A model generated the notes under the pieces. That model ran no database searches. It was not told the origin of the DNA and saw only the letters and a program-made list of their open reading frames with translations. Below, piece after piece: positions 3,837 to 21,228 of a stretch of DNA of 22,188 nt (the first letter of the stretch is position 1; the number at the start of each line of letters is the position of its first letter). The position numbers and the translations under genes are program-made. Origin of the DNA: a virus; IMG/VR virus record IMGVR_UViG_3300036715_001107, positions 1-22,188 of that record; one strand, given 5' to 3'.

Positions 3837-4631
3837 TTAATCTATAATTTTGATACCGCTTGCAATAATTGCTCCTTTTTCGTGAGCAGGAATATTGTCA
3901 AAATCGGCGCGTTTAATTACTTTACCAGTGCCACTGGAATCGCGGACACCACTTGAACCGCTACCGCTTGTACCCATTGGGAACCAGTGAGGCTTGAGTT
4001 CTTTTTGCAAATCGAACCATTCGGAAGGACTGAACGGGGACTTACCGTCTTTTCCTAGCACTGGAACACCTTCGGTATCCAGTTGTACTGCATTGCCTTT
4101 AGCATCCAACGAAAAAATGTTACGAGCGTGTAACAAAGCATCGTCTACTGCTGCTGTATGTAAACCTTTTGCAGCTTGACGAATCTGGTTGTCCAATACG
4201 CTACCCTTGTAAGTATCCGCACGAGCAGCTTCAGCTTTAGTCAATAAACGCTCTGCTTCTAACTGCGCCAAGTGGTCAGCTCTCATGCGCTCTGTGTACT
4301 TATGAATAACTTCGTTTTTACGACCTTCTGAAAACGCTTTAATATCTTCATCGTGATCTAAACGATTTTGTATTTCTTTAATCTTTTCAGGATCAATGTC
4401 CCCAAATAACTTCAAACGATCGCTTGTTGTTTTCATTTTACCAAGCAATTCAGCATTCTTTGTTTTTAAACCCGAAGTAGCTGCTTCCACTGCTGCATCA
4501 ATCTTTGCTTGCAAAGCTATTGCTGCTTGTTGTGCAGCTAACGCTGCTTCTGCTGCTGGATCGTTTTCACGTATTTCTAAAACTGTTGTCCGGTGACTTG
4601 TGCTGTATGCTGCTTTTTTATTTGAGTTCAT
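3837..4631 (-). CDS. Capsid scaffolding-like protein
   Basis: 264 residues. Residues about 25-140 are Ala/Glu/Lys/Leu-rich and predicted helical or coiled coil (AALAAQQAAIALQAKIDAAV, then KTKNAELLGKMKTTSDRLK). The C-terminal third contains SPSEWFDLQKELKPHWFP followed by a Gly/Ser linker and a short basic end. This architecture and the place between portal and coat gene are typical of phage scaffolding proteins, which direct coat assembly and are then released. A strong AAGGGG site lies 7 bases before the ATG. I see no protease domain. The family cannot be named from sequence alone. Confidence 0.75.
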   Translation of the reverse strand: MNSNKKAAYSTSHRTTVLEIRENDPAAEAALAAQQAAIALQAKIDAAVEAATSGLKTKNAELLGKMKTTSDRLKLFGDIDPEKIKEIQNRLDHDEDIKAFSEGRKNEVIHKYTERMRADHLAQLEAERLLTKAEAARADTYKGSVLDNQIRQAAKGLHTAAVDDALLHARNIFSLDAKGNAVQLDTEGVPVLGKDGKSPFSPSEWFDLQKELKPHWFPMGTSGSGSSGVRDSSGTGKVIKRADFDNIPAHEKGAIIASGIKIID

Positions 4632-4771: not shown

Positions 4772-6274
4772 TTATTTATTTTGAAGCTGTGTTATCGTTG
4801 GAGCAGGTGTTGCGGGAGTTGCTTTTCCTTTAGGTGACTTAACTTCCTGATTGCCCGGAGTTGTTGGCGCATCTAGCATAGGAGGTGGATTTGCGTCAAG
4901 TTCTTTCTGCTCCTCTTCCACTGTTTTATCCGTAGGAACAATTTCACCCTTCTTCAAATTAGCAAACATTGTGTCGTAACTGTACGCACCATTTTGCCAT
5001 CCAGCAATAATAGCAGTAAGCGTTAACGCATCCATTGGTACAGCAAAGAAGTCTCTGTTCAAAGCAAATTTAACATCTTTCGTTGGCGCACCAGCAAATT
5101 CACAAAATGTTTTTAAAGCTTTCTCAACACCAATAGAAATAGCTTGTGCAACACTGGATAACATACTTTGCTCACCGCCACGGTGTATAGCTGCTGTATT
5201 AGCGGACTCTACCCCACCCTTTTGTGCTTCTAGCATACGAGCGCCAAGAACTGCCATATAATTTTCTTTTTTACTTAGGTTATCGCATAGGGACTGCAAA
5301 CCCTGACCAGTAAATTCCAAATAGGTAGCTTTAGCATCAGGTCTTGGAAATACCCAAGCTGTCATGCTGCCAATATAAAAACTTGTATTTTCAGTTTCAG
5401 GTGTATAGCCGCTAATGACTGGAGTTGGTAACCCTGTGAAGTGACAACCATGCTCGTAGTCCGCTGTTGTTCTGTAATGAGATAAATTCATATCTACTAA
5501 GTCAATAAGTGGCGGTTCATCTACGCACCAGCTAACATCATCAACACCAATAAACTGGAAAGGTATTGTGGTTAGAAGTTTACCACCAACCATAGGGAAA
5601 GAGGTACTCTCTAAAACGTCATCGCCTTTTTCGTTTATTGTAAAGATACGAACGCGGTACATAACGTCTGTACCATCAGCAGTATCTATTAAATCTAAAA
5701 CACGGTATTGTATTTTATCAGCATCCGCAAATTCGTTAAGTGCTACGCTGACAATTTCTTTCAAAACAACTTTGGAAAGAATTGTTTTATTTTTGATAGT
5801 CTTTGTTTTCCAATTTATAATACTTTGCGCTTTATAAAGTTTCATTGACGGACGGAAATTACCTATAATTGCGTCCGCTGCTGTAGCGCCTAATGGCGCA
5901 ATAGGGAAATCCACAAATACACCAACACGCCCTACCTTTAAGCATTCCTCGGAAAGCTCCAAAGCAAAGATATGTAAGGACGTACCAGACATTGTAATGT
6001 CTTCAGTCATTTCCTTAATAACTTCGGGAACTATTACCGCTGGAGGTTTGCGAAATAGCATACCTTGCAAGCCTACCACTGTTCGCCAAGTTGCATTGTA
6101 AAACGGGGTTCGTCCCAAATAAGACGAATAGTCTTTAGCGTTCTGTTCGCCTAAAGCAGGGAGGTATGCTGTACCCATAGCATGTATAGCATCTTGCCCA
6201 TCGCAAACGTCTGTACAACGAGACCATTTGTTTAGCATGAGTGTATATTCGGGATGTTGGTGTGCAACTGTCAT
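4772..6274 (-). CDS. Portal protein (DUF4055 type)
   Basis: 500 residues. The N-terminus has HPEYTLMLNKWSRCTDVCDGQDAI, YLPALGEQNAKDYSSYLGR and FYNATWRTVVGLQGMLFRKPP, the hallmark opening of DUF4055 proteins, which are encoded beside terminases and act as portals. The portal is the dodecameric ring at one capsid vertex through which DNA is pumped and to which the tail attaches. The C-terminus is Pro/Thr/Lys-rich and probably disordered. It starts 1 bp after the large terminase stop. No frameshift or missing part is visible. Confidence 0.88.
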   Translation of the reverse strand: MTVAHQHPEYTLMLNKWSRCTDVCDGQDAIHAMGTAYLPALGEQNAKDYSSYLGRTPFYNATWRTVVGLQGMLFRKPPAVIVPEVIKEMTEDITMSGTSLHIFALELSEECLKVGRVGVFVDFPIAPLGATAADAIIGNFRPSMKLYKAQSIINWKTKTIKNKTILSKVVLKEIVSVALNEFADADKIQYRVLDLIDTADGTDVMYRVRIFTINEKGDDVLESTSFPMVGGKLLTTIPFQFIGVDDVSWCVDEPPLIDLVDMNLSHYRTTADYEHGCHFTGLPTPVISGYTPETENTSFYIGSMTAWVFPRPDAKATYLEFTGQGLQSLCDNLSKKENYMAVLGARMLEAQKGGVESANTAAIHRGGEQSMLSSVAQAISIGVEKALKTFCEFAGAPTKDVKFALNRDFFAVPMDALTLTAIIAGWQNGAYSYDTMFANLKKGEIVPTDKTVEEEQKELDANPPPMLDAPTTPGNQEVKSPKGKATPATPAPTITQLQNK

Positions 6275-10791: not shown

Positions 10792-11011
10792 AATGGGGGT
10801 GAATATAGTTGTGATGGAGGTGGTAGCTATTATATATGTTAAATAGTTGATGTTCTATATAGATTTATTTTTTATTTTTTTTTGGAATCGGAAATTGGAG
10901 TCTTTGGAGATGTACCCCCCTATTTGATGTTTGATGTTTCAGTTGGGAGGGGTAATGTATGTGGTATAACTGTAACCCATATGTTGCACTAAAGTAACTA
11001 ATTTACTTACA

Positions 11012-11075
11012 GCAATATTGTACCAAAGCAATATTACACCCAAGCAATATTGTACCAAAGCAACGTTGTGCATGT
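11012..11075 (+). repeat. Four tandem 16-bp iteron-like repeats
   Basis: Units start exactly 16 bp apart at 11012, 11028, 11044 and 11060. Units 1 and 3 are identical (GCAATATTGTACCAAA); unit 2 is GCAATATTACACCCAA and unit 4 diverges after GCAA. A strict period with graded decay is typical of binding sites for an initiator or repressor. 16 bp is about one and a half helix turns, so neighbours would lie on opposite faces. Confidence 0.8.
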
Positions 11076-11128
11076 ACTAACATACCACTTCAATACCATA
11101 CCATACCACTTTGCGGTTATATTACAGT

Positions 11129-11156
11129 GCAATATAAGTATTGCTATAAAGCAATA
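11129..11156. repeat. Alternating GCAATA boxes
   Basis: GCAATA (11129-11134), its reverse complement TATTGC (11139-11144) and GCAATA again (11151-11156). The box matches the start of the iterons at 11012-11059, so the same protein may bind both clusters. The arrangement allows two alternative hairpins sharing the middle box. Confidence 0.55.
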
Positions 11157-11182
11157 GCGGTTTAAACGCGCTGTATAGTACT

Positions 11183-11196
11183 TTAACGCGCGTTAA
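11183..11196. promoter_or_regulatory. 14-bp palindrome TTAACGCGCGTTAA, copy 1
   Basis: A perfect palindrome, repeated identically at 11454-11467. A 14-bp exact duplicate of a perfect palindrome 271 bp apart is unlikely by chance and suggests a dimeric regulator's operator, perhaps permitting looping. Confidence 0.55.
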
Positions 11197-11325
11197 GTAA
11201 GCTACCCTCACTACCCTAGCGGCCACCCTAAACAAACGCAGCCTGCGCGGTTTTACCTATGTAAAAACAGGGTTAATAACCCTACCAAAACCCCAAACCA
11301 TACCGTGCTAAGTGGTACGGGTAAC

Positions 11326-11343
11326 TGTTGTATAAATACAACA
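11326..11343. promoter_or_regulatory. 18-bp operator-like palindrome
   Basis: TGTTGTATAAATACAACA: two perfect 8-bp arms around AA. Length and symmetry are like lambdoid Cro/CI operators. It lies 65 bp upstream of the LexA box. No second clear copy was found in the window. Confidence 0.5.
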
Positions 11344-11374
11344 AGCAAACACTTGCCAAGCCAGGTTAGTTGTG

Positions 11375-11405
11375 GTACACGCGCACGCGCACACACACAC
11401 GCACA
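11375..11405. repeat. Alternating purine-pyrimidine tract
   Basis: 31 bp of strictly alternating purine and pyrimidine, mostly CA and CG steps, ending 2 bp before the LexA box. Such tracts can adopt Z-DNA under negative supercoiling. Whether it affects the adjacent promoter is unknown. Confidence 0.55.
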
Positions 11406-11407
11406 AC

Positions 11408-11427
11408 TACTGTACATATATACAGTG
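11408..11427 (+). promoter_or_regulatory. LexA (SOS) box
   Basis: TACTGTACATATATACAGTG agrees with the E. coli SOS consensus at 18 of 20 positions and has the intact CTGT-N8-ACAG core (11410-11425). It overlaps the -35 region of the early promoter below, the usual place for repression by host LexA. It implies a beta/gammaproteobacterial host and induction of the early operon by DNA damage. Confidence 0.8.
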
Positions 11428-11439
11428 CTACACTATATA
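11411..11439 (+). promoter_or_regulatory. Putative early rightward promoter
   Basis: TGTACA (11411-11416), 17 bp, TATATA (11434-11439). Each box is four or five of six to consensus. The -35 lies inside the LexA box. Transcription would start near 11446 and read over the second 14-bp palindrome, boxA and the first early genes. Confidence 0.5.
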
Positions 11440-11453
11440 ACCAAAACAGGTAG

Positions 11454-11467
11454 TTAACGCGCGTTAA
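11454..11467. promoter_or_regulatory. 14-bp palindrome TTAACGCGCGTTAA, copy 2
   Basis: Identical to 11183-11196. It falls just after the predicted transcription start, a position where a bound dimer could block the early promoter. Confidence 0.55.
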
Positions 11468-11561
11468 TATAAGCATACTGTTGTTGCACTAGGTAGATGT
11501 TTAAACTATAGTTATACCTAAGCAAGCGTAGTACCACCACATAATGCTGGTTGGGTTTTAT

Positions 11562-11579
11562 TGCTCTTTAACAATTTAT
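11562..11579 (+). promoter_or_regulatory. rrn-type boxA antitermination site
   Basis: TGCTCTTTAACAATTTAT matches the boxA of E. coli ribosomal RNA leaders over its whole length, including the TGCTCTTTAACA core bound by NusB-S10. It lies in the expected early leader, about 115 bases after the predicted start and 115 bases before the first gene. I see no convincing lambda-type boxB hairpin next to it. A role in read-through of the downstream hairpins is inference. Confidence 0.75.
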
Positions 11580-11615
11580 AAGTATGTGTATATTTTTAAA
11601 CAATGCATATTATAC

Positions 11616-11693
11616 AAAGTAATTTGTTACCTTATTGCAATATTGTAGTAGGGTAACGAGTGCGCTTTGCACTATCACAGTAAAGGTAAAATT
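11616..11693 (+). promoter_or_regulatory. Two-hairpin leader element, copy A
   Basis: AAAGTAAT is followed by a long hairpin (11626-11639 with 11644-11657, 14 pairs including three G-T pairs, 4-nt loop) and a second hairpin AGTGC-GCTTT-GCACT (11659-11673), then an AAAGG ribosome site and ATG. The second-hairpin loop GCTTT equals that of copies B and D. No T-run follows the first hairpin here. Confidence 0.65.
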
Positions 11694-11819
11694 ATGTACA
11701 CAAAATATAAAGCTCACGCGCCTAGTATTTCTTGCTATAAAGACAGGATTGCTCTATTACGTCAGCTTGCATTGCAACATGCACAAAAACCTAACCCACT
11801 TGTAAAGGTGGCAAAATGA
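11694..11819 (+). CDS. Small early protein, 41 residues, unknown
   Basis: Starts MYTKYKAHAPSISCYKDR; basic, with a short helix (RIALLRQLALQHAQ) and no membrane segment. AAAGG lies 7 bases before the ATG and the stop overlaps the next start (ATGA). Too short for family recognition. First gene of the SOS/boxA-controlled operon, a position that often holds host-takeover proteins. Confidence 0.6.
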   Translation: MYTKYKAHAPSISCYKDRIALLRQLALQHAQKPNPLVKVAK

Positions 11820-11932
11820 GCAAAACAATTATGGACGCAACTGTCAAAGCTAACATTGTGTCACACATGTTAGAAAACGGTCGTTATCGTTGCAAGACGA
11901 GAAAGGATGTAGAAATACAATGTTTCAAATGA
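11816..11932 (+). CDS. Small early protein, 38 residues, unknown
   Basis: Starts MSKTIMDATVKANIVSHMLEN and ends CKTRKDVEIQCFK; two cysteines, basic. It is translationally coupled to both neighbours by ATGA overlaps. Coding is supported by this packing only; no family recognised. Confidence 0.5.
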   Translation: MSKTIMDATVKANIVSHMLENGRYRCKTRKDVEIQCFK

Positions 11933-12072
11933 GCAATAATGAATTAATGGATATTTATTTAAGCGAAATTGGAATTATTGGTTTCACAACTCAAATCCTT
12001 CACGCAATGAACGAAATCCAAGCATACACTGAGCGGCAGCGAAACGGGCGCAGAGTGTCCGGATTAAAGTAA
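11929..12072 (+). CDS. Small early protein, 47 residues, unknown
   Basis: Starts MSNNELMDIYLSEIG at an ATG overlapping the previous stop; an in-frame ATG three codons upstream is the alternative. Helical (TTQILHAMNEIQAYTERQR) with a basic end. Its last codons and stop form the first bases of leader element B. No known family. Confidence 0.55.
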   Translation: MSNNELMDIYLSEIGIIGFTTQILHAMNEIQAYTERQRNGRRVSGLK

Positions 12073-12139
12073 TCTTTAATGCTACTCTAACCAGTAGCAT
12101 TTTGGATGCGCTTTGCATCATAACTTTAAAGGAAATAAA
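12066..12139 (+). promoter_or_regulatory. Two-hairpin leader element, copy B
   Basis: AAAGTAATCTT, then hairpin 1 (12078-12086 with 12093-12101, 9 perfect pairs, loop CTAACC) running into TTTT (12100-12103), then hairpin 2 GATGC-GCTTT-GCATC (12105-12119), then AAAGGA and ATG. The 3' arm of hairpin 1 (GCAT) can also pair with the 5' arm of hairpin 2 (ATGC). Confidence 0.75.
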
Positions 12140-12424
12140 ATGGCAGAAATTAAAATTATGTCTTCCCCTCAGGATTTAATAAATGAACCTACAATGTTTA
12201 TTTATGCAATGGGAAAGATTAAACATTGGGATAGTAATGAGGACAAAAATTATTGTTATTCTATCCATGCAGATTCCAGAGTTGCGGACGATGCTCCACC
12301 ACATAAGTTTCCAGGATGGCTGGAATGGCAATTGTGTGTCTGGAATGCAGATAACAATAATCTTGTTATTGCAATCGCTTTAATCCAACGCTCGAAAACA
12401 AGCGAATTTGAATCTCATTCTTAA
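12140..12424 (+). CDS. Early protein, 94 residues, unknown
   Basis: Starts MAEIKIMSSPQDLINEP at the ATG after AAAGGAA; the longer frame would need a TTG inside hairpin 2. Mixed alpha/beta with many aromatic residues (FPGWLEWQLCVWNADNNN). No signal, membrane segment or known motif. Preceded and followed by leader elements B and C. Confidence 0.65.
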   Translation: MAEIKIMSSPQDLINEPTMFIYAMGKIKHWDSNEDKNYCYSIHADSRVADDAPPHKFPGWLEWQLCVWNADNNNLVIAIALIQRSKTSEFESHS

Positions 12425-12501
12425 AGTAATCTTAAATGCAGTTCCTAACCGAGCTGCATTTTGGATGCACTTTCGCATCGTTAATTTAATTAAGGATTAT
12501 T
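12423..12501 (+). promoter_or_regulatory. Two-hairpin leader element, copy C
   Basis: AAAGTAATCTT, hairpin 1 (12435-12444 with 12451-12460, 10 pairs with one G-T, loop CTAACC as in copy B) running into TTTT (12459-12462), hairpin 2 GATGC-ACTTTC-GCATC (12464-12479), then AAGGA and ATG. GCAT of hairpin 1 and ATGC of hairpin 2 can pair with each other instead. Confidence 0.75.
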
Positions 12502-13131
12502 ATGAAAACTCAATCTACGTCTGTTGCAAAGTCTGCAAAAGCACCTAAGATCAAAGCTAACGCGATTCCAAAAGCTGCCAAGGCAGCAATTAAAATGGAA
12601 AGTCTATCTTTAGCGTCTGATGTGCGTGCAGCAATCGCAGAAGCAAACATTCCAAATTTAGATGTACCTATCGCTGCTACTGTTTCACACAATGTTTTCT
12701 CGAATTTGATAAAACAAGCCGAGGGAGCAGTTGTTGAAGTAATCGCAGACACTGTGGCATCAAGTTTTGAAGCCGAACTGGCTGCATTGCAAGCAAAGCA
12801 CGGTTTCACAGGTAATGTAAAATTCACAAAGCCTAAAGCGGAGAAAGCTTTAAAAGTTTCTCGAATTGTGCAAAACGGAATCACACGTCCTGCAGATGGT
12901 ACATTGTGCGGTTTAATCTGGTTAGCTGCTGATCACCACACAACACCAACCTCACCTGCTCAAATCGCCCAACTTAAAGCTGATGTAGCTTTGAAAGATG
13001 TCAACGATCATACAATCAAAACACAGTATGCGCGTTGGAGACAGTTCAACGGTGTAACAGGTCGTCTGCAAAATGTCTCGAAAATTGCAACTCCAACAGT
13101 GTTATCGTTTGGCACAATGCAACCGTTCTAA
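12502..13131 (+). CDS. DNA-binding-like early protein with basic N-terminal tail
   Basis: 209 residues. Residues 1-31 are Lys/Ala-rich, histone-tail-like (AKSAKAPKIKANAIPKAAKAA). Residues about 35-105 are helical. The C-terminal part, NGITRPADGTLCGLIWLAADHH then KTQYARWRQFNGVTGRL, matches a domain pattern seen in several phage and plasmid proteins and resembling a winged helix-turn-helix (RP-x-G-T near the start, QY-x-RWR-x-F-x-G-x-TG near the end). A role in gene control or DNA organisation is inferred. AAGGA precedes the ATG by 6 bases. Confidence 0.75.
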   Translation: MKTQSTSVAKSAKAPKIKANAIPKAAKAAIKMESLSLASDVRAAIAEANIPNLDVPIAATVSHNVFSNLIKQAEGAVVEVIADTVASSFEAELAALQAKHGFTGNVKFTKPKAEKALKVSRIVQNGITRPADGTLCGLIWLAADHHTTPTSPAQIAQLKADVALKDVNDHTIKTQYARWRQFNGVTGRLQNVSKIATPTVLSFGTMQPF

Positions 13132-13206
13132 AGTAATCTTAAATCCAGTTAAGAAATTAGCTGGATTTTGGATCCGCTTTGGATCATAACCAATTAAGGA
13201 AATATT
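13130..13206 (+). promoter_or_regulatory. Two-hairpin leader element, copy D
   Basis: AAAGTAATCTT, hairpin 1 (13141-13152 with 13157-13168, 12 pairs with one G-T, GAAA tetraloop) running into TTTT (13166-13169), hairpin 2 GATCC-GCTTT-GGATC (13171-13185), then AAGGA and ATG. Here the four arm segments are ATCC, GGAT, ATCC, GGAT, where copies B and C have ATGC, GCAT, ATGC, GCAT. Confidence 0.75.
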
Positions 13207-13395
13207 ATGTATAAAACTTTCGATGCTGCTCACAGCGAAGCTGTTAAGCAAAACCTAGCTGACGGATGTGTTGTTCGCATTTGCGCTGTAATTGAAAAAC
13301 GTATCATCCCAGATGGAACAGGTATTGAACATTATGTTTCCGGCTACATTCTGTCCGACTGGTGTGATGGTTCAACTATTCATACTGTCTCGTAA
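13207..13395 (+). CDS. Early protein, 62 residues, unknown
   Basis: Starts MYKTFDAAHSEAVKQN; a short helix then beta strands (CVVRICAVIEKRII, HYVSGYILSDWCDG). Small soluble domain, no recognised motif. AAGGA lies 7 bases before the ATG. The stop overlaps the next start (TAATG). Confidence 0.65.
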   Translation: MYKTFDAAHSEAVKQNLADGCVVRICAVIEKRIIPDGTGIEHYVSGYILSDWCDGSTIHTVS

Positions 13396-13854: not shown

Positions 13855-14124
13855 ATGGACTCACAACAAATCCTCGCTTGCTGCCTTTTAGAACTTTGCA
13901 AGCAAGACGATATCAAAGATCCTCAATTTGAAGATATTAGCGATAGAGAAGCAGCTTTGATTTTAAAGCTAATTTCTGAAGGTAATCACCATCTGGATAT
14001 TAGGCAAGCTAAGTCTGGTGAAAATTGCGGTAAGCTTTATCCTTGGCCAGTTGCTAATTGCAACTATATTGATCACGATAGCGAAACCTATTTAGAATTA
14101 ACCGCAATCTGGAAAGCAGAGTAA
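13855..14124 (+). CDS. Early acidic protein, 89 residues, unknown
   Basis: Starts MDSQQILACCLLELCKQDD; helical N-terminal half with four cysteines by residue 59, acidic overall. The cysteines are not spaced as a clear zinc site. AAGGAATT precedes the ATG. Its stop region leads into leader element E. Confidence 0.65.
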   Translation: MDSQQILACCLLELCKQDDIKDPQFEDISDREAALILKLISEGNHHLDIRQAKSGENCGKLYPWPVANCNYIDHDSETYLELTAIWKAE

Positions 14125-14185
14125 TCTTATAGCTCTGTGACAGAGGGTTATTGGATCAATTTTGATCAGATGACTAGGAAATACT
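14118..14185 (+). promoter_or_regulatory. Two-hairpin leader element, copy E (diverged)
   Basis: GAGTAATCTTAT, then hairpin CTCTG-TGA-CAGAG (14133-14145), then GGTTATTGGATC and hairpin GATCA-ATTT-TGATC (14154-14167), then AGGAA and ATG. Same order and spacing as copies A-D, with different stems and shorter first hairpin. The cross-pairing of arms seen in B-D is not present. Confidence 0.55.
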
Positions 14186-14416
14186 ATGGTATTAAATAAC
14201 TTTAAAACAGTAGATGTGGATGCTTGGGCGGACTTCCCTAGCGATTATAAAAGCACTAGTTTTGAACGCTCAAACAATACAATGGTTCAAGTGGTAAAAG
14301 GTATCGTAATTGCATACGTGCAATATCCCATGAACGGAATTGAAAAATCATATCACATAATGAATGATGATTCTTTAATTGCGGATCAGAAAATCGTTTA
14401 TAAACTAAATAATTAA
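14186..14416 (+). CDS. Early protein, 76 residues, unknown
   Basis: Starts MVLNNFKTVDVDAWADFP; mostly beta (MVQVVKGIVIAYVQYPMNG). AGGAA lies 6 bases before the ATG. No recognised motif. Followed after 8 bp by the next gene. Confidence 0.65.
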   Translation: MVLNNFKTVDVDAWADFPSDYKSTSFERSNNTMVQVVKGIVIAYVQYPMNGIEKSYHIMNDDSLIADQKIVYKLNN

Positions 14417-20215: not shown

Positions 20216-20731
20216 ATGAGCGCTCCTCCTAAACGGGGTAATGCAAACCTTGTGCTGAAACGTAAAGCTTATTTTGAAGCTTTTCTAACAGCACGTGGCG
20301 CGGAAGTATTACAGCCTACAAATGAATACGAATTAGTACGTTTTAAGTCTGGTTCTAATACATCTATTATTTACAGTAAAAAAGATGGTCGCTTAACATT
20401 TTACGGTGCAGCGGAAGAAGCTTGGTTCGCTTTTGTAAGCAATAGTGCTTGGCGTGCTTCTATACCTATTCCTAAACGCAATGCGCCAAGCCTTGCTACT
20501 TTGCAAGTGCGTGATAACAATACCTGTTTTTATTGTCTTCAATTAGTCTCTAACGAAGACGCAAGCGAAGAACATTTGTTGTCTCGTACTCATGGTGGCC
20601 CAGATACTCTACAAAATAAAGTCTTAGCTCATAAAGTCTGTAATAGCCATGCTGGGCATTCAGACTTATTTGCTAAGATTCAATTACATACCCAAGCTGT
20701 TTTAGCTTTATATAAAAGGAATACACAATGA
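20216..20731 (+). CDS. HNH endonuclease-type protein
   Basis: 171 residues. The C-terminal half has an HNH layout: Cys104 and Cys107 (CFYC), EEHLLSRTHGGPDTLQNKV with His120 and Asn134, then HKVCNSHAGH with His139, Cys142 and Asn143. CxxC and the second Cys/His pair would hold structural zinc. The N-terminal 95 residues are a separate alpha/beta region. It could be a homing nuclease, or act in packaging or host DNA breakdown; being coupled to the RadC-like gene it is more likely part of the phage's own DNA metabolism. The stop overlaps the next start. Confidence 0.82.
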   Translation: MSAPPKRGNANLVLKRKAYFEAFLTARGAEVLQPTNEYELVRFKSGSNTSIIYSKKDGRLTFYGAAEEAWFAFVSNSAWRASIPIPKRNAPSLATLQVRDNNTCFYCLQLVSNEDASEEHLLSRTHGGPDTLQNKVLAHKVCNSHAGHSDLFAKIQLHTQAVLALYKRNTQ

Positions 20732-21228
20732 CAAATTTTTCAAATAATTTTGGTGCAGATAGTCAACTAAAATTAGACCAAAAAGAAATAGACGATAACT
20801 ATATTAAGTATAGTATTGCTGTTCTTGAAAAACGCCTTACTCAACAAACCATAACCACACTAAGTACACCGGACATAGTTTCCAAATATCTTGTTTTGCA
20901 ACTTGCACAACTTGAGCACGAACTGTTTGGTTGTTTATTCTTAGACATTGAAAACCGTTTAATTATAAACTTACCTATGTTTCGTGGTTCTCTTGCGCAT
21001 GGTAGTGTTTACCCTCGCGAGGTTATTAAAGAAGCTTTAAAGTATAATGCTTCAGCAGTTATTTTCTATCACAACCATCCAAGTGGTAGCATAGAACCCT
21101 CCCAAGCTGACCACACCATCACCAAGAAATTAAAAGCTGTGTGCGAATTAGTAGATGTGCGCGTACTAGACCATATTATTGTTGCAGGTGTAGAAACTTA
21201 CAGCTTTGCGCATCATGGGACGCTATAA
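20728..21228 (+). CDS. RadC-type JAB/MPN domain protein
   Basis: 166 residues. The JAMM metal site is complete: HNHPSG with His115 and His117, then PSQADHT with Ser125 and Asp128. The upstream FGCLFLDIENRLI, FRGSLAHGSVYPREVIKEAL and ASAVIFY are RadC hallmarks. Bacterial RadC is longer and begins with helix-hairpin-helix repeats, which are missing here; only about 55 unrelated residues precede the domain. Despite the name, its biochemical role is unsettled. AAGGAAT precedes the ATG, which overlaps the HNH stop. Confidence 0.88.
   Translation: MTNFSNNFGADSQLKLDQKEIDDNYIKYSIAVLEKRLTQQTITTLSTPDIVSKYLVLQLAQLEHELFGCLFLDIENRLIINLPMFRGSLAHGSVYPREVIKEALKYNASAVIFYHNHPSGSIEPSQADHTITKKLKAVCELVDVRVLDHIIVAGVETYSFAHHGTL

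Follow-up and report, generated by a model that had tools for sequence, protein, structure and literature searches.

A conserved rrn-type boxA heads the early operon in a group of related phages

Antitermination in bacterial rRNA operons involves a boxA in the untranslated leader together with NusB-S10 (NusE), NusA, NusG and SuhB, and the protection this boxA gives is from Rho-dependent, not from intrinsic, termination. The locus described here, a stretch of 22,188 bases analysed as a whole and called the window below, shares with this system an 18-nt boxA on the transcribed strand of an untranslated leader and the lack of N and boxB. However, its boxA heads an early protein-coding phage operon and not rRNA. 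Lambda N/nut and mEp021 Gp17 also operate on early phage operons with a boxA in the leader, but the window and its relatives have neither a conserved boxB nor a consistent N-like protein, and their boxA takes the rrn consensus form. The factor-independent antitermination RNA put of HK022 has two hairpins, and two hairpins are also present in the window. The early control region of the window also contains a LexA-type box. The coliphage 186 tum promoter is a LexA-controlled phage promoter of comparable kind. Another is found in GIL01 (PMC6182141). Both of these phages are temperate, whereas neither an integrase nor an S24 repressor was found in the relatives of the window searched, and the LexA box is not generally conserved among them. 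Finally, suhB carries, like the window, a perfect GYTCTTTAANA in the 5' untranslated region of its mRNA (PMC5725501); there it serves host autoregulation by repression, while in the phage early operon a positive effect is presumed.

The window comes from a virus record in IMG/VR. The genes for scaffold, portal, major head protein, terminase subunits and thymidylate synthase are on its minus strand, and many small early genes without recognisable function are on the plus strand. The divergent control region between them (about 900 bp, 10792-11693) holds both boxA and the LexA-like box. At the DNA level, no phage record matched positions 10800-12400. Relatives were gathered via the major head protein, an early protein of 209 aa (12502..13131, plus strand; family phrog_18634/phrog_11298, function not assigned) and the small ORF1 which heads the early operon in relatives and is absent from the window; a search with a 507-aa protein gave no relative. 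Terminase relatives (about 50% identity) include the siphophages Providencia PSTCR4 and Alteromonas R7M. Homologous leaders were located by a landmark of the divergent control region, ATTTACTTACAGC (11001..11013, plus strand), present in most relatives, with the short sequence ATTTACTTACRG serving as the marker of a homologous divergent region. A search of 12 records (five are 69-95 kb long) revealed neither an integrase nor an S24 repressor, though records may be fragments. The phages carrying the boxA leader make up a siphophage clade that is uncultured and apparently virulent.

Several repeats were seen in the control region. Four 16-bp iteron-like repeats of the AGCAATATTGTACCAA type lie directly past the landmark (11011-11074) and could be an origin or an operator array; repeats are likewise present just past the landmark in G042 and G006. 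The perfect 14-bp palindrome TTAACGCGCGTTAA has two identical copies (11183-11196 and 11454-11467) 271 bp apart, with the LexA-like box between them. Another palindrome, GCGGTTTAAACCGC, is found at similar places in the divergent regions of L161, L164 and L199, and a degenerate form of it is located near 11157 in the window. Farther along the early region, a RadC-like JAB-domain protein is encoded at 20728-21228, with an HNH endonuclease (20216-20731) upstream.

The rrn-type boxA TTGCTCTTTAACAATTTAT occupies 11561-11579 of the plus strand, with its core GCTCTTTAACA at 11563-11573. The 18 nucleotides TGCTCTTTAACAATTTAT (11562-11579) are identical to the E. coli rrnH leader, and the site is a perfect match to the gamma-proteobacterial consensus GYTCTTTAANA (PMC5725501). 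Every other site in the window has at least three mismatches, the chance expectation for the core being 0.02 per window. The sequence-only reading of an 18-nt rrn-like boxA downstream of a LexA-like box was accurate; the measured distance past that box is 134 nt. An exact 22-mer from the boxA region had no match in bacterial genomes. A reading frame of 34 aa spans the boxA, with no ribosome-binding site seen for it on reading. When the window was checked for boxC, TGTGT was found after boxA; alignment columns beyond about +6 are not conserved.

Twelve phage leaders, all from phages with this divergent early region, were compared, ten of them found without using boxA. The best forward match to GYTCTTTAACAA reaches 12/12 in the window, G008, G043, G045, G046 and G006, 11/12 in G042, G044, G041 and G005, and 10/12 in G002 and G001. 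The site is on the early strand: the best reverse-strand match scores only 8 to 10 and is lower in all 12 leaders. Fisher's method, applied to the ten leaders that had no part in finding the pattern, gives a combined p of 1.1e-13 against dinucleotide shuffles, although the tests are not fully independent since the phages share ancestry. Two of these ten, G002 (p 0.089) and G001 (p 0.064), are individually weak, and both have mismatches in the core. Columns +1 to +8 past boxA, which played no part in site selection, carry 0.55 bits of information versus 0.21 +/- 0.07 in random blocks (maximum 0.51 of 2000). Beyond them the information falls to the random level. Conservation ends about 6 nt past boxA, and the leader flanks are not alignable. 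In every one of the 12 leaders boxA stands at the head of the early operon, outside recognisable early genes, either between ORF1 and the next gene or ahead of ORF1 (the transcribed strand being deduced from gene orientation). In sequence, strand and leader position boxA is conserved across the group, and judging by this pattern it is very probably a functional site.

The 18-nt identity to an rrn leader could also be what is left by chance or by the capture of a host rRNA operon fragment without function. We regard this as barely credible: the boxA is a conserved island in 12 otherwise unalignable leaders, and the window has no Rfam match such as rRNA. The early leader is the only informative place for the comparison. 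Over the whole contigs of 42 structural relatives boxA was not enriched relative to the reversed pattern, and cultured relatives, reached via the 209-aa protein or the terminase, gave merely scattered matches.

Lambdoid and mEp021-type phages pair boxA with boxB and an N protein, so the conserved site might be half of a nut-like signal, in which a diverged N-type protein of the phage binds an unrecognised boxB along with Nus factors. Several relatives do have a hairpin past boxA, the strongest in G041 (z -5.2). Small unannotated ORFs are plentiful, and an isolated Arg-rich one lies within 4 kb in G041, G001, G002 and G042. However, folding of the 70 nt past boxA gave no hairpin common to the 12 leaders, as the hairpins share neither sequence nor position, and in the window the structure is not stable (z -0.1), in agreement with the earlier remark that no clear boxB is seen. 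Seven of the 11 phages checked, the window included, have no Arg-rich N-like ORF within 4 kb, and the end of conservation about 6 nt past boxA also speaks against a second protein-binding half. We therefore consider a nut-like site unlikely.

As there is neither a conserved boxB nor a consistent N-like protein, the simplest interpretation is a Nus complex made up of host factors alone, and an rrn-type boxA leader that brings about direct antitermination of early transcription by this complex is, on the comparative evidence, the explanation we find probable. RNA polymerase would transcribe the boxA as part of the untranslated leader of the early transcript, and host NusB-S10, with NusA, NusG and SuhB, would bind the RNA at boxA and become loaded onto the polymerase. 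The loaded polymerase would then resist Rho across the long leader, which is untranslated, and across an operon made up of very small genes with untranslated, structured joints between them, apparently with no need for a phage N protein or boxB. Thus NusB-S10 binding and loading, antitermination in the form of Rho resistance, and independence from a phage factor are what we infer from the conserved leader. Susceptibility of the leader to Rho is an assumption, because it is not C-rich in the window (C minus G = -2). The boxA part of the earlier suggestion, that the phage uses the host rRNA antitermination complex directly, is strongly supported by the boxA conserved in 12 leaders with no conserved boxB or consistent N-like protein, whereas the SOS control attached to it is not supported (see below).

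A boxA can also have a different role, as the one in the suhB leader mediates repression (PMC5725501). By analogy, the phage boxA might exert suhB-like repression, or the abundant leader RNA might act as a decoy titrating NusB-S10 away from rRNA operons, for which the full-strength rrn form in the window would be suitable. Yet a decoy need not precede the early operon, while the head-of-operon position is kept in 12 of 12 leaders, and the degenerate copies in G001 and G002 would make poor decoys. A decoy or repressive role is accordingly rather improbable in our opinion, and we prefer direct antitermination by the host Nus complex.

The LexA-like box TACTGTACATATATACAGTG (11408-11427) has two mismatches to the E. 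coli consensus TACTGTATATATATACAGTA. With 0.01 sites expected per window (up to three mismatches) and 0.0007 per intergenic region (up to two), the 18 of 20 match noted in the sequence-only reading is unlikely to have occurred by chance. The promoter said to underlie it is less convincing. Candidate P1 (TGTACA-17-TATATA, 11411..11439, plus strand) does overlap the box but is weak and is not among the top five scores, and P2 (TTGCAC-17-TATAGT, 11484-11512, plus strand; score 8.3), 57 bp downstream of the box, is better. The best promoter score is 8.9 versus 8.8 +/- 1.3 in shuffled sequence, so no candidate rises above shuffled sequence.

LexA might nevertheless repress the early promoter, with DNA damage relieving the repression and boxA then providing host-type antitermination. 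Such an SOS switch could draw on the improbability of the 18/20 box and on the CTGT-N8-ACAG dyad present in three of the 12 leaders (window, G043 and G006) versus 0.47 expected (p 0.008). An element resembling half a LexA box, TACTGTATAWAAACCCAT, is found at a comparable place in G041, G043 and G045. At least 40 viral stretches (L002-L041) carry the dyad 115-145 nt ahead of GCTCTTTAACAA, and these prophage-like loci resemble the window in having a LexA-type dyad upstream of boxA. They belong to different phages and are mostly arranged in another way, so they were rejected as homologues of the window. In most of those examined the dyad is just before a divergent small gene, and the boxA leader is fed by a separate TTGAC-type promoter, which counts against LexA control of the leader. 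Judging by leaders of this type, the loci are probably from Pseudomonas. The divergent small gene encodes about 105 aa, and the boxA leader is on the other strand.

Within the group of the window, the 18/20 box is unique to the window; the remaining 11 leaders have a weaker dyad (two) or none (nine). Because the 12 records searched yielded neither an integrase nor an S24 repressor, an early promoter under LexA control would need to act on incoming DNA, and repression of incoming DNA by LexA is hard to rationalise. ORF1 has no relative among bacterial genomes, and the promoter under the box is, as described, weak. Damage-induced early transcription is thus not supported, and we think an SOS switch on the early promoter quite doubtful: next to boxA it is probably not a shared feature of the group, and the LexA-like box amounts to a lineage-specific addition at most.

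Consensus-type boxA copies are also found in phages unrelated to this clade. In the independent phages L230 and L231 a TTGACA-type promoter is followed by the same boxA form as in the window, and 19 other viral stretches contain the 18-mer TTGCTCTTTAACAATTTA, in some cases ahead of apparent tRNA genes. The viral contigs L131, L137 and L140 have an rrn-type boxA shortly before apparent tRNA genes. With consensus boxA in the leaders of unrelated phages and prophages, such a leader is not unique to the clade of the window, and the contrast drawn earlier, according to which phages use a degenerate boxA, proves too simple.

The early operon was also described as studded with terminator-like hairpins. 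The hairpins are present, but they belong to intercistronic pseudoknot elements and not to intrinsic terminators. An alignment of 16 intercistronic elements shows two hairpins with strong covariation: of their 15 pairs, 13 have compensatory changes. The pentamer at the 5' end (AAAGY, AGAGY or AGAAC) base-pairs with the hairpin 2 loop (RCUUU, RCUCU or GUUCU), and permuting the loops between copies 2000 times never matched the observed pairing. With a covariance model, 33 copies were detected across 39 related loci (632 kb), including the 16 used to build it; another 726 kb, from structural relatives, added one match (L048, E 1e-4). In the window, all on the plus strand, copies B (12066..12142, 80.5 bits), C (12423..12504, 64.1 bits) and D (13130..13209, 78.1 bits) are part of the model, copy A (11616..11696, 71 bits, E 7e-12) is outside it, and copy E (14118..14188, 30.7 bits, E 0.006) is degenerate. 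Copy A, located between boxA and the first small ORF, differs from the stop-to-start copies in that it follows boxA. Rfam had no family matching the window.

The upstream ORF ends at the 5' end of the element in 24 of the 33 copies (9% at random), and a start codon is at the 3' end in 32 (27% at random), accompanied in 31 by a ribosome-binding-like sequence; copies within one phage are not independent of each other. Instead of a G+C-rich hairpin with a U run directly behind it, the elements extend as far as the following start codon, with a ribosome-binding-like site at their end, and we rejected intrinsic terminators as an explanation; within copies A-E a terminator-like call was obtained only for copy C (12464-12479). 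Consequently, read-through of terminators B-E would be the wrong test. We would guess that the element controls or couples translation across the joint, and it may be a more novel feature than the boxA leader. Hammerhead-like sequences (CTGATGAG, CGAAAC and a GTC-type core) were also observed at gene joints of related early operons (L122, 4307-4375 and 5346-5417; L123, about 4920-4975; L203, about 4335-4385), L122 matching Hammerhead_3 and RAGATH-1 below the gathering score.

Our search of the open-access literature gave no report of an rrn-type boxA in the early leader of a virulent phage. Most known cases of Nus-dependent antitermination of early phage transcription are in temperate phages that have an N protein and boxB. 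We consider it quite possible, if somewhat short of probable, that a virulent clade took over the ribosomal antitermination signal without a phage antiterminator, and did so for an early operon whose stop-to-start joints carry an undescribed pseudoknotted RNA coupling or controlling translation or RNA processing. A conserved boxA without N and boxB would be a simpler route, in which the host rRNA signal is mimicked and a phage factor is unneeded. Such a leader would make it testable whether NusB, S10 and SuhB alone suffice on an mRNA operon, and the pseudoknot element at the gene joints adds a new candidate to the regulatory RNAs.
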